33,009 bases of DNA from Planctomycetaceae bacterium (GTDB lineage Bacteria > Planctomycetota > Phycisphaerae > Phycisphaerales > SM1A02). Below are positions 29,125-32,499 of the stretch, piece after piece. Position 1 is the first letter of the stretch; every line of letters begins with the position of its first letter. The position numbers and the translations under genes are program-made. The notes below the pieces were generated by a model, which saw only the letters and a program-made list of their open reading frames with translations, was not told the origin of the DNA and made no database searches. The DNA lies in assembly GCA_947480055.1 (NCBI GenBank), contig CANKBX010000008.1, positions 1-33,009 on the forward strand, written 5' to 3'.

Positions 29125-29372
29125 ATTTTTGGCACAAAATTCTATTATTAGCTCTATATTTTTACCCAAAAATCCGGCAAATATGCCCCAAACTTTCAAA
29201 GTTTCCGTTGCGATTTTAGATTTTTGGTGCATACTAAACAAGTTCACGTGGGGTACCCACCATCAATACCCAAGCGGGGGCTTGATCTTTTGGTGATTCA
29301 TATGATTGGCATAAATAATTTTAAATATACAAGCGCGCCTGTTTGCCACGCGCAAATTCCGGAGAACTAATT
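29125..29372 (+). promoter_or_regulatory. Upstream region of the DGR-like target gene
   Basis: Contains the inverted repeat AAACTTT-C-AAAGTTT (29190-29204) immediately before a possible promoter TTGCGA (29208-29213) / 16 bases / CATACT (29230-29235), the hairpin CAAGC-GGGG-GCTTG (29271-29284), and a Shine-Dalgarno GGAG at 29361-29364, nine bases before the ATG at 29373. The palindrome next to the -35 could be an operator. The promoter boxes are weak, so confidence is low. Confidence 0.35.
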
Positions 29373-31778
29373 ATGAATCCCAAGAAAGCGCGCCATATAT
29401 TTGCAAACTTCATTAAAGGAACATTATTACAGTCTGTTGCACTTGCAATTTCGTTTTTGTTCACCGCATTGTCTGTTGCCGCGCGCGCCGATGAACCCCG
29501 TCTAGATGGCTTATTTCTTGAGTGGTCAAGCGCGAATCTCATTGCCACCGATCCCGCCGGCGACGCAACTGGCGCATTTGATATTCAAAATGTGTACGCC
29601 ATCAATCGTGGCACCCGTCTCTTTCTGCGATTTGATATTAGCTCAACCTTGAATATGCAATCAGGCCTTTCCACTGACGGAACGTTGATTGTGCAGATTG
29701 CAATGCCCAACAATAGATTTCTTTCGATCGATATGCGCAATCGAAAAATCTGGCATGATAATGATCCTGCATTAACAGTAACGAATGAATCAGTGGGTTA
29801 CGCCGTGGCGCCTTCTTACGCCTCCAACGAGTTTGAATTGGGAATTGATTTGCAAATGTTTGGAGTTGTATTGGGAAGTCCAATTACAATTAACTTTAGT
29901 TCAAGCGACTCGTTGACTAGTGCGGCTACATACACCATAGCTCTGAGTAATGTAATTATCACACAGGGCCGTTCTGCGGATCGATCCCCCGGCACAACAT
30001 TTCGCATCGCGAGTCTGAACACATATGTCACAGGGTTGCTGAATTCAACGCAAAGGCCACAAATTCAAAGGCTTGTTGACGCCATGAATGCCGACATTTA
30101 TTGCTTTCAAGAAGAATATTATTCGTATCCCGAAGACATTGCCCAAGCACTTGCAGAGGCGAACCCCATGGAGGATGGAGCCACATGGAATGTGTCCCAG
30201 TATTACGACATGGCAATTGCAAGTCGGTCACCCCTCATTTCACTTTCCAGCGGTAGTGGTCGACATGGGGTCATTGTTGATCTGCCAGGAGAGGGTCCGG
30301 AAGATGCGGTTGTGATTTTCTCCATTCACCCTAAATGTTGTGGATATATTGGATCCTCCTCGGACTTAACTCGCATTTCGCAAATGAATGGGCTTATTAC
30401 AACGGTCACGGATCTGCGCGCGGGCACGCTTGGCTCTCAATACGAACCATATCGCCAAGCACCCGTCATTATTATTGGCGACTGGAATTTGGTTGGTTCG
30501 CGTACACCACTTGATTTGGTGACAAATCCAGCAGGGTTAAATATGGTTGATGCATTGCCAGCCAATTTAATTGGCGAAGACGTAATGACTTGGCGCACTA
30601 ATACTGGTGAGACTTTTTGTCCGGGCAGATTGGACCTAATGGCCTACCAAGCCTCGAATGGGTTGGATCTTTTAGGTTCATTTATATTAGATAGTGCTTT
30701 GTTGAATCCGGCAGAACTTCTGACGCTGGGATTGCAATCAACTGATTCAAGTTGCAGTGACCATCTCATGCTTGTGGGAGATTTTAGGTTTTCTGCAGGA
30801 GATCCCAACTGCGTGGGCGACTTAAATCAAGATCATGCAGTGGACTCCGCAGATCTAGGAACATTGCTGGGTTTATTTGGCCCTTGCCAATCAGCTGACC
30901 CTGGTGACTTTAATTTTGATGCCGCCATTGATAGCTCTGATTTGGGAACCATGCTGGGAAACTTCGGACCGTGCCCATCTGATTTGGCGTGGGCCACGGT
31001 ACTTCAATGGAATCCAGACCCCGACGTGGTGCCAGACGCCGACGTGCGCGCCAAGATTGTTGCAAGCGGCTACCCATGGAGCGTGCGCGACACAGGCACT
31101 GGCATAGAAATGTTGCTTATTCCTGGTGGCACATTCAACATGGGTTGTAGTGCGTCCAATAGTTACAGCTGCTATTCCTCTGAGAACCCCACGCACCAAG
31201 TGACGCTAAGCAAGGCGTTCTATTTGGGTAAGACAGAAGTAACCCAAGCGCAGTGGCAAGCCAAAATGGGCAATAATCCAAGCTATTTCAGTGGCAATGC
31301 CAACAACCCTGTTGAGCAAGTAAGTTGGAATGACATTGCTGGCTTTAACACCGCAACAGGTTTGCGCTTACCTAGCGAAGCGGAATGGGAATATGCCTGC
31401 CGAGGCGGAACAACAACTGCGTTTCACAGTATGCCTGGCTACCCCAATGGCACCAATAATGACAGTTTGCTAGTAAACATTGCGTGGTACTCCAGCAATT
31501 CAAGAAGCACAACACACGCCGTTGCCGGCAAAGCCGCCAATGCGTTTGGCATGTACGACATGTCAGGCAATGTGTATGAGTGGTGCAATGATTGGTATGC
31601 AAGTTACGCCGCGGGCAATGCGACGGACCCAGCAGGACCTTCGACAGGTTCGTACCGCGTGCTGCGCGGCGGCTGCTGGTACGGCGGCTCCTACGGCTGC
31701 CGCTCGTCGGACCGTGGCGGCGGCGGTCCCGGCGACCGCGGCAGCTACTTCGGCTTCCGTGTCGCGAGGACTCCGTAG
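29373..31778 (+). CDS. Secreted EEP nuclease-like/dockerin/FGE-lectin protein, probable DGR target
   Basis: 801 residues; the ATG at 29373 is chosen for its GGAG site over a TTG at 29343. Order of parts: long signal peptide ~1-39 (core LLQSVALAISFLFTALSVAARA); a CBM9-like beta-sandwich ~40-200 (LDGLFLEWSSAN...GTRLFLRFDIS); an endonuclease/exonuclease/phosphatase domain ~208-475 with FRIASLNTY, FQEEYY (metal Glu), IIGDWN (catalytic Asp/Asn) and SDHLML (SDH); two dockerin Ca2+ loops ~482-540 (DLNQDHAVDSADLG, DFNFDAAIDSSDLG); and an FGE-sulfatase/C-type-lectin-fold domain ~575-801 (LIPGGTFNMG, LGKTEVTQAQWQ, RLPSEAEWEYACRGG, DMSGNVYEWCNDWY). Its last ~40 residues look like a DGR variable region (separate entry). 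EEP members cut nucleic acids or phosphodiesters or lipids; the substrate here is unknown. Confidence 0.88.
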   Translation: MNPKKARHIFANFIKGTLLQSVALAISFLFTALSVAARADEPRLDGLFLEWSSANLIATDPAGDATGAFDIQNVYAINRGTRLFLRFDISSTLNMQSGLSTDGTLIVQIAMPNNRFLSIDMRNRKIWHDNDPALTVTNESVGYAVAPSYASNEFELGIDLQMFGVVLGSPITINFSSSDSLTSAATYTIALSNVIITQGRSADRSPGTTFRIASLNTYVTGLLNSTQRPQIQRLVDAMNADIYCFQEEYYSYPEDIAQALAEANPMEDGATWNVSQYYDMAIASRSPLISLSSGSGRHGVIVDLPGEGPEDAVVIFSIHPKCCGYIGSSSDLTRISQMNGLITTVTDLRAGTLGSQYEPYRQAPVIIIGDWNLVGSRTPLDLVTNPAGLNMVDALPANLIGEDVMTWRTNTGETFCPGRLDLMAYQASNGLDLLGSFILDSALLNPAELLTLGLQSTDSSCSDHLMLVGDFRFSAGDPNCVGDLNQDHAVDSADLGTLLGLFGPCQSADPGDFNFDAAIDSSDLGTMLGNFGPCPSDLAWATVLQWNPDPDVVPDADVRAKIVASGYPWSVRDTGTGIEMLLIPGGTFNMGCSASNSYSCYSSENPTHQVTLSKAFYLGKTEVTQAQWQAKMGNNPSYFSGNANNPVEQVSWNDIAGFNTATGLRLPSEAEWEYACRGGTTTAFHSMPGYPNGTNNDSLLVNIAWYSSNSRSTTHAVAGKAANAFGMYDMSGNVYEWCNDWYASYAAGNATDPAGPSTGSYRVLRGGCWYGGSYGCRSSDRGGGGPGDRGSYFGFRVARTP
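31653..31770 (+). other. Probable DGR variable region (VR)
   Basis: Codons for residues 761-799 read YRVLRGGCW-x-CRSSDR-x-PGDR-x-FGFRVAR, the classic layout of DGR-diversified FGE/lectin ends (RVLRGGSW N-rich CRSxxR N-rich PGNRxxxxGFR). Codons at residues 770-772, 774, 775, 780, 782-785, 788 and 790-792 are TAC, GGC, GAC, AGC or GGT, that is, each derivable from AAY by changing only adenines. Codons ending in A or T, common in the rest of the gene, vanish abruptly here. The invariant 3' end (TTCGGCTTCCGTGTCGCG) would be the initiation site of mutagenic homology. No template copy is found in this window. Confidence 0.75.
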
Positions 31779-31793
31779 TTCCCTTTTCCCTTT

Positions 31794-31823
31794 GCTGATT
31801 CCTTGGAATCAGCTTCTATTTTA
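31794..31823 (+). terminator. Hairpin 3' of the DGR target, possible terminator
   Basis: GCTGATTCC and GGAATCAGC (31794-31802 and 31805-31813) form a perfect stem, best as 8 bp with a four-base loop, followed by a T-rich tail TTCTATTTTACTTTT. It begins 16 bases after the stop codon. It may terminate the transcript, or be one of the DNA hairpins found just after DGR variable regions. Confidence 0.5.
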
Positions 31824-31852
31824 CTTTTACCATTTCACTTTTACCTCTCTCC

Positions 31853-31878
31853 GCCAAAACTGCGGAAGCAGTTTTGGC
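31853..31878 (+). other. 11-bp hairpin with GGAA tetraloop, candidate DGR cruciform
   Basis: GCCAAAACTGC (31853-31863), loop GGAA, and the exact complement GCAGTTTTGGC (31868-31878). It has no T-run after it on either strand, so it is not a good terminator. It lies 75 bases past the stop codon of the probable DGR target. In the Bordetella phage DGR a short perfect stem with a GRNA-type tetraloop downstream of the VR is needed for retrohoming; GGAA fits that pattern. Confidence 0.45.
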
Positions 31879-32009
31879 AAAAAATCCCGCCTGAATTTGT
31901 GTGCACGCAATAAATTGGTTGCCACAAAATAGGCAAGCGAAAAATTGTCCCGCAAAGTAAATACCGAGTCCCCCAAGCGAAAGTGTTTCACGTAGTGATC
32001 ATGGCTACC

Positions 32010-32226
32010 ACCACAAGCAAGTTGAGCACCCGCGCAAGCTTCAAAAATTCCCACGTCGCAGAAAGGCTGGAAACACAAGCAAGTTGAGTACCCGCGCAAG
32101 CCTCAAAAATTCCCGCGTCGCAGAAAGGGTGACACCACAAGCAAGTTGAGCACCCGCACAAGCCCACAAATTCCCGCGTCGCAGAAAGGGTGGCACCACA
32201 AGCGAGTTTAGCACCCGCGCAAGCCC
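32010..32226. repeat. ~62-bp direct tandem repeat array, about 3.5 copies
   Basis: The phrase CACAAGC starts units at 32012, 32074, 32136 and 32197, giving periods of 62, 62 and 61 bases. Each unit has CACAAGCAAGTTGAGCACCC, a middle ending in AAATTCCC, and CGTCGCAGAAAGG; units differ by a few substitutions and the fourth ends early. The open frames across it are not genes: 62 is not a multiple of three, so each unit is read in another frame. Not CRISPR, since no part is variable like a spacer. Confidence 0.85.
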
Positions 32227-32274
32227 TGCTTGCGAGGGGTGCGTTGTCTGAGCGACTGGTGCCACCCTTTCTGC
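32181..32274. repeat. 17-bp perfect inverted repeat enclosing a nested hairpin
   Basis: GCAGAAAGGGTGGCACC (32181-32197), the end of a tandem unit, is exactly inverted at 32258-32274. Between them GCACCC-G-CGCAAGC (32211-32224) pairs with GCTTGCG-AG-GGGTGC (32228-32242) across a three-base loop. As RNA or single-stranded DNA this would fold into a long compound stem on either strand. Confidence 0.7.
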
Positions 32275-32342
32275 AAAGCGTTTCACTTTCTTGCGCCCGG
32301 TGCGCCACCCTTTCTGCAAAGCGTTTCACTTTCTTGCGCCCG
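32261..32342. repeat. 39-bp direct repeat, two identical copies
   Basis: Two identical 39-base copies, 32261-32299 and 32304-32342, offset 43 bases, begin GCCACCCTTTCTGCAAAGCG and end CTTTCTTGCGCCCG. Their first 14 bases are the reverse complement of part of the 62-bp units, so this pair is an inverted continuation of the same repeat family. Bases 31879-32009 and 32343-32380, on either side, show no gene. Confidence 0.85.
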
Positions 32343-32384
32343 TTGATTGCCCCCCGCGGCAACTTCTTTCATACGCCGCGGAAA

Positions 32385-32427: not shown

Positions 32428-32499
32428 AGCGGGCGAAGGGGCTCGAACCCTCGACATTCACGTTGGCAACGTGACGCTCTACCACTGAGCTACGCCCGC
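32428..32499 (-). tRNA. tRNA-Gly (anticodon GCC)
   Basis: 72-base cloverleaf on the minus strand: acceptor GCGGGCG/CGCCCGC with discriminator T; D arm GCTC-AGTGGTA-GAGC; anticodon stem TCACG/CGTGA with loop TTGCCAA (GCC); T arm GAGGG-TTCGAGC-CCCTT with one G-T pair. The 3' CCA is not encoded. A -10-like TATACT lies just upstream and a terminator just downstream, so it is transcribed alone. Confidence 0.96.

Follow-up and report, generated by a model that had tools for sequence, protein, structure and literature searches.

A probable dispersed target of a diversity-generating retroelement in a Phycisphaerales genome bin without a detectable reverse transcriptase

The window analysed here is a 33,009-nucleotide stretch on contig C8 of a draft planctomycete genome (G000; 2.22 Mb, 195 contigs, 82% complete). 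Near its right-hand end lies a gene whose last codons depart abruptly from the composition of the rest, which raises the question of whether this end was written by a diversity-generating retroelement (DGR) and, if so, where the reverse transcriptase (RT) and template repeat (TR) are. The switch to NNC-rich codons noted in the preliminary description was borne out: 28/40 codons of the variable region (VR) end in C, compared with 135/505 upstream, and the GC content climbs from ~0.50 upstream to 0.74 in the VR. Fourteen variable codons had also been placed at sites where a template would carry AAY. Thirteen of them stand at AAC positions in a consensus of 13 related TRs from other genera, and these were all NNC (TAC, GGC, GGC, TAC, GGC, GAC, GGC, GGC, GGC, GAC, GGC, AGC and TAC). 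The remaining GGT codon need not derive from AAY, since the TR consensus has ACG at this position and AAC is present in only 4/14 TRs.

The predicted product of the target gene (Table 1) comprises an Exo_endo_phos-like domain (PF03372, residues 240-474, E 7.7e-6, barely above the Pfam cut-off), dockerin-like repeats, which were identified by eye, and a C-terminal FGE-sulfatase domain (PF03781, residues 589-809, whole-protein E 5.4e-47). The best solved relative of the FGE domain is the Treponema denticola variable protein 1 (TvpA; 2Y3C, E 8.6e-41), and the C-terminal end of TvpA aligns with the window VR. Judged from the sequence, the VR occupies the 3′ end of a gene with the C-type-lectin/FGE fold, as is usual for DGR targets, and the protein tail probably forms a binding face of the C-type-lectin kind. 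FGE genes are present in many copies in this genome, with 17 matches to the family.

Table 1. Coordinates of the target gene, its VR and associated features. Positions are those of the window unless a genome and contig are named.
Feature	Location	Strand	Basis or remark
Target gene	29343..31778	+	ORF list; 811 aa counted from TTG; ATG at 29373
FGE-sulfatase / C-type-lectin-fold domain, bearing the VR	31107..31769	+	Pfam, FGE matches in the same genome and relation to 2Y3C
VR	31656..31775	+	Framework codons near constant; 13 template-AAC codons read NNC
Putative 3′ end of the IMH (initiation of mutagenic homing), GTCGCGAGGACTCCG	31761..31775	+	TR/VR comparison with relatives
Conserved 3′ element after the VR	31776..31860	+	Five matches in the same genome
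Hairpin	31794..31813	+	8-bp stem, CTTG loop; 18 nt after the VR
Frozen VR pair	G000:C51:1881-2029 (L010) and G011:C101:3394-3542 (L111)		AAG homing site; no differences in 105 VR bases

A DNA search of the same genome with the window VR identified nine further copies (71-83% identity, E <= 4.6e-14), all within FGE genes, giving ten VR-bearing FGE genes in total. The suggestion of a dispersed target was supported. Across these copies, named here by contig, the framework codons are almost fixed and the intervening codons differ mostly as NNC. VRs are carried by at least 8 of the 16 genus genomes. Some changes in the VRs of this genome are not adenine rewriting and count against the DGR reading: C29, C66, C87b, C11 and C51 show length differences, and the C87a VR lies 10-11/87 framework columns (11.5-12.6%) apart from the other four ungapped VRs of this genome.

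The adenine specificity of the variation was analysed against the TR consensus, from which L134 had been dropped as a near-duplicate of L128. The analysis included the five ungapped VRs among the ten of this genome and 14 of the 22 VR rows of the genus; rows of other length, or without an anchor or frame (G002C15, G003C450), were excluded. The five own VRs vary at 31/33 template-A columns compared with 12/87 other columns (Fisher p ~1e-16, a nominal value, given the dependence between columns of one codon and between related sequences), with a mean pairwise difference of 0.655 at the template-A columns and 0.068 at the others. For the 14 genus VRs, 31/33 template-A columns and 39/87 other columns are variable (mean pairwise difference 0.633 and 0.114, respectively), and the third base is C in 170/182 template-AAC codons. 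Within the template-A codons, the first and second positions vary (0.63 and 0.56), with the third nearly fixed (0.025). The window VR itself differs from the consensus at 25/33 A columns and 12/87 others; some of the latter are expected, as the templates come from other genera. Variation is thus confined to the template adenines in the main but not strictly, the exceptions being C87a and the length changes.

The same pattern is present where relatives carry both repeats. The TR of G041 mismatches the local VR at 16/30 adenines and 1/80 other bases, and a VR on another contig at 17/31 adenines and 4/94 others. Four further loci showed mismatches at 22/34 adenines vs 2/94 other bases, 16/36 vs 3/89, 8/34 vs 3/90, and 23/31 vs 3/86. 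A remote VR in G020 fits the G020 TR less well (16/33 adenines vs 17/87 others) and ends in AAG; a different template may serve it, or it may have degenerated.

Overwriting by a common template was assessed in four paralogs of this genome (six pairs, without C87a and the five VRs of other length). Third codon positions differ at 250/1159 sites (21.6%) upstream compared with 6/240 (2.5%) in the VR, and we therefore consider that a shared template overwrote the VRs of these paralogs. Framework differences among the four were 1.1-5.7%, compared with 10.7-14.2% upstream; the window, C159 and C89 differ at only 1-2/87 framework columns, with 10.7-12.8% upstream. The homogenised stretch begins ~30 bases before the VR core, a start that is uncertain, with the ungapped comparison out of register further upstream.

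The putative homing site distinguishes VRs from TRs. The window codon at 31767-31769 is AGG, the VR-type state, whereas 12/14 related TRs have AGC or AGT there; the two that do not (L126 and L076) have a different end. AGG was observed in 9/10 VR-bearing genes of this genome, near the VR end in 17/20 genus VRs, and in the VR of all four TR/VR pairs compared in relatives. The IMH of the window differs in this way from the IMH* of the TRs, which were taken from relatives, as is expected of a DGR target.

The hairpin downstream of the VR has a DNA fold of -7.0 kcal/mol (z -5.8, 0/200 shuffles as good), and can also be drawn as a 9-bp form with a TT loop. The same hairpin follows the VRs of C159, C89, G009C23 and G013C13, and no comparable hairpin was found after those of C87a, C29 and C66. 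The BPP-1 work describes a cruciform with a 7-10 bp stem and a GRNA loop, derived from phage-related DGRs (PMC3240598). The 8-bp stem and the z-score of the window hairpin stand beside a CTTG loop unlike the GRNA consensus of the phage DGRs, and a terminator-like, T-rich tail. It could be a candidate target-recognition cruciform, and could equally be a transcription terminator. The longer 3′ element in which it lies is matched after the VRs of C8, C159 and C89, in part 60 bases past the C87b VR, and weakly at C1.

As no match to the N-terminal part of the window gene was found in the remaining 15 genomes of the genus, orthologues were compared at other VR loci. C87b and G002C61b are orthologous, with flanks conserved on both sides; they provide the only clean locus. 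Their VRs differ at 27/102 bases (26.5%), compared with 37/600 (6.2%) and 33/612 (5.4%) in the flanks, and the differences fall at 22/33 template-A and 5/87 other columns. At C29/G002C101, which are probable orthologues, the VR differs at 33/99 bases (33.3%) and the flanks at 79/564 (14.0%) and 44/609 (7.2%). The reverse was observed at C51/G011C101, where the homing site reads AAG: the VR differs at 0/105 bases, the homing-site stretch at 2/18, and the flanks at 21/600 (3.5%) and 27/612 (4.4%). A further copy, G011C196 (G011:C196, L092), is nearer to C87a (92.0%) than to C87b (87.1%) upstream and nearer to C87b downstream, with VR differences of 25.5 and 24.5% and flank differences of 10.9-16.0%; it looks like a mosaic of two neighbouring copies and is weaker evidence on timing. 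From these sequences, we read homing as having continued once G000 and G002 had diverged, and as having ceased where the homing site was altered, each half of this reading drawing chiefly on one orthologous pair.

An identical VR in all close relatives had been named beforehand as an observation that would speak against a DGR. It was not found at C87b/G002C61b, and was found at C51/G011C101, where the homing site is altered. Taken with the adenine columns, the homogenised framework of the paralogs and the VR-type homing-site codon, the divergence at an orthologous locus supports the proposal that this end is a VR and that a DGR rewrote it from a template rich in AAC.

The preliminary description saw neither a TR nor an RT in the window, and this holds for the whole 82%-complete assembly as well as, for the DGR RT, all 16 genus genomes. 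RVT_1 had no matches in the 82%-complete assembly, and a protein search for DGR RTs found none in the genus (16 genomes). A search of the assembly with the inferred AAC-rich template returned the ten VRs as strong matches, and the rest were short and weak. The best match was the C55 VR (86%), with no near-AAC copy, and the best in the genus was G011C196 (89%), a VR with an AGG codon. The joint lack of a template copy and an RT, also listed in advance as speaking against a DGR, is thus what was observed, but only in an assembly that is 82% complete. The Avd-like family PF05635 was found in 0/16 genus genomes, and likewise in none of the control genomes. The SQ motif marks DGR enzymes. The sole RVT_1 match in the genus (L086, G014:C2) has a QG-type motif, YRDD and no SQ motif; it was rejected as not DGR-like, and we presume that it is perhaps a defence-type reverse transcriptase.

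Completeness differs among these genomes. Of two that are 98% complete, G007 has a VR without a DGR RT and G001 lacks VR and RT alike. The product of the missing fractions over the eight VR-bearing genomes, by our own arithmetic from the completeness figures, is ~6e-8, so that random incompleteness alone cannot explain the absent RT. Cassettes are present among relatives: a DGR RT search of 181 family genomes gave some match in 18 at E 0.001, with 13 of these below 1e-40, and members of the same family and order have real TRs next to DGR-type RTs (motif GNLTSQ or GNQTSQ, with YCDD). Two related RTs tested against NCBIfam match only below the cut-off; the related RTs are called DGR-type because of the motif and the adjacent TR/VR pairs. 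Among the 17 related RT loci, L127 has the motif but its stretch yielded no TR; by pattern, no RT motif was seen in L128 or L135, though a clear TR/VR pair is present in L128.

The related RTs lie near contig ends unusually often. Within 1.3 kb of an end were 13/17, where 5.0 are expected, and on contigs >=20 kb the count was 7/11, where 0.6 are expected. The 1.3 kb cut-off was picked after seeing the distances and the expectations come from contig sizes alone, and the other cut-offs point in the same direction: at 1.0, 2.0 and 5.0 kb the counts were 8, 13 and 15 of 17, with 3.9, 6.6 and 8.3 expected. The 17 comprise 15 loci from the DGR RT search, one from a separate RT search, and the RT of G097, an SQ-motif enzyme located 16 kb away from a contig end. 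For this reason, the loss of the TR/RT cassette in assembly or binning, with short contigs assumed to remain unbinned, is the preferred and likeliest cause of its absence.

We are fairly confident that the region in the window is the VR of a remote, dispersed DGR target whose TR/RT cassette is most likely missing from the bins. A DGR reverse transcriptase would make cDNA from an AAC-rich template RNA, misreading adenines at random, and this cDNA would take the place of the VR at the 3′ terminus of those FGE-fold genes whose 3′ homing site is of the right kind. The cassette would exist in the lineage now, or would have done so until very recently; DGR loci would break assemblies and the resulting short contigs would go unbinned. 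A cassette on a plasmid, phage, integrative element or other separate replicon, acting in trans and lost in binning, overlaps with this reading, and we give it a limited chance. It would account for 16 genus genomes without the RT of which at least 8 carry VRs, and for targets so dispersed that only action at a distance serves most of them. Against it, the phage and plasmid collections gave no VR match, and scans of the viral contigs, whose reach extends only to near relatives, gave none to the exact VR framework, to an exact piece of the template, or to proteins closely related to one RT. Some RTs of relatives also lie on long contigs, chromosomal or other (G142:C11, 139.7 kb; G071:C16, 128.4 kb). 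An extension of this idea, in which the whole genus keeps chromosomal targets without a chromosomal RT, and a mobile RT and template edit them in trans when present, is speculative and doubtful; if it were true, receptor diversification in the genus would be on loan from a mobile element.

It is also unlikely, in our view, that the RT and TR were lost from the lineage and that the VRs are leftovers, as in T. denticola isolates. The assembly without an RT or TR, the 16 genus genomes without a DGR RT, the drifted C87a framework, and the C51/G011C101 pair, which acts as a frozen VR, agree with such a loss, and there is a published precedent (PMC4891356). The C87b/G002C61b VRs, however, differ at adenine columns far beyond their flanks, and the near-identical frameworks of the window, C159 and C89 contrast with their divergent upstream regions. 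Homing into these VRs looks no older than the species split, so that any loss would have to be recent. It is highly improbable that ordinary positive selection, with gene conversion between the FGE paralogs, produced the pattern with no retroelement involved. Members of so large a family could recombine, and G011C196 resembles a mosaic of two neighbours, but neither process predicts variable first and second positions beside a near-fixed third, the fit to TR adenines defined in other genera, or the contrast of AGG with AGC/AGT. It was the third-position pattern that led to the rejection of positive selection alone.

The closest known systems to the dispersed target proposed here are the cassettes of relatives (G020, G142, G190, G135, G134, G065, G201, G071, G078, G204, G167, G079 and G041). 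The translated TRs share with the window VR an RVLRGG-like start, W, CR and a GFR-like end, and lie beside the RT. The likeness is in the TR/VR sequence; unlike the genome and genus of the window, these cassettes hold the RT and TR on one contig. The T. denticola DGR, which also provides the closest solved structure (TvpA, 2Y3C), similarly has several dispersed VR targets. Isolates with targets and without an RT or TR are reported (PMC4891356); there, the RT-less state occurs among isolates of one species, whereas here it extends to 16/16 genus genomes with VRs that diverged between species. The Thiohalocapsa PB-PSB1 study likewise describes loci that are incomplete and candidates for remote targets, some of them attributed to action in trans (PMC10907252), but the trans-explained targets have a matching TR in that genome, and the targets are putative conflict-system proteins. 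The remote variable proteins of cyanobacteria are dispersed C-type-lectin paralogs with VR/TR homology, as here, but were assigned to DGRs of the same genome (PMC7517822).

Published work already covers remote targets, action in trans and coreless targets; new here is their unusual distribution. In the literature retrieved for DGRs with Planctomycetes or Phycisphaerae, no title or beginning of an abstract treats the remote targets of this group, and the global DGR survey states that remote targets would escape its approach (PMC8144416). The genus offers a natural test of trans-acting DGRs, with many dispersed targets, most homing sites intact and some altered, in species close enough for the comparison of orthologous loci. 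The data also suggest that genome bins can lose a DGR core and yet keep its targets, in which case RT-based DGR counts would miss target-rich genomes.

Several features of gene arrangement were also observed. The VRs of L005 (C29), L006 (C66) and L115 (G002:C101) are not at the end of the protein. Past the VR, C29 and C66 continue in frame for 207-208 codons into a tail with Asp-rich repeats, identified by eye, and the length changes of both VRs are in-frame. Neighbouring pairs of VR genes share a contig at G000:C87 (L002, L007) and at G002:C61 (L090, L110). At G000:C11:20005-23406 there are three consecutive FGE genes (L033, L034 and L039), one of which ends VR-like; the other two, with tails that are related and of ordinary codon usage, are possibly ancestral or long-retired targets. 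Downstream of the VR gene in the window there are four head-to-tail copies of a 61-nt unit (31980-32225), the first only 66% alike, and two head-to-tail copies of a 42-nt unit (32261-32345). Inverted-repeat arms separate the two groups, and both lie between the VR gene and a tRNA-Gly gene on the minus strand (32428-32499).
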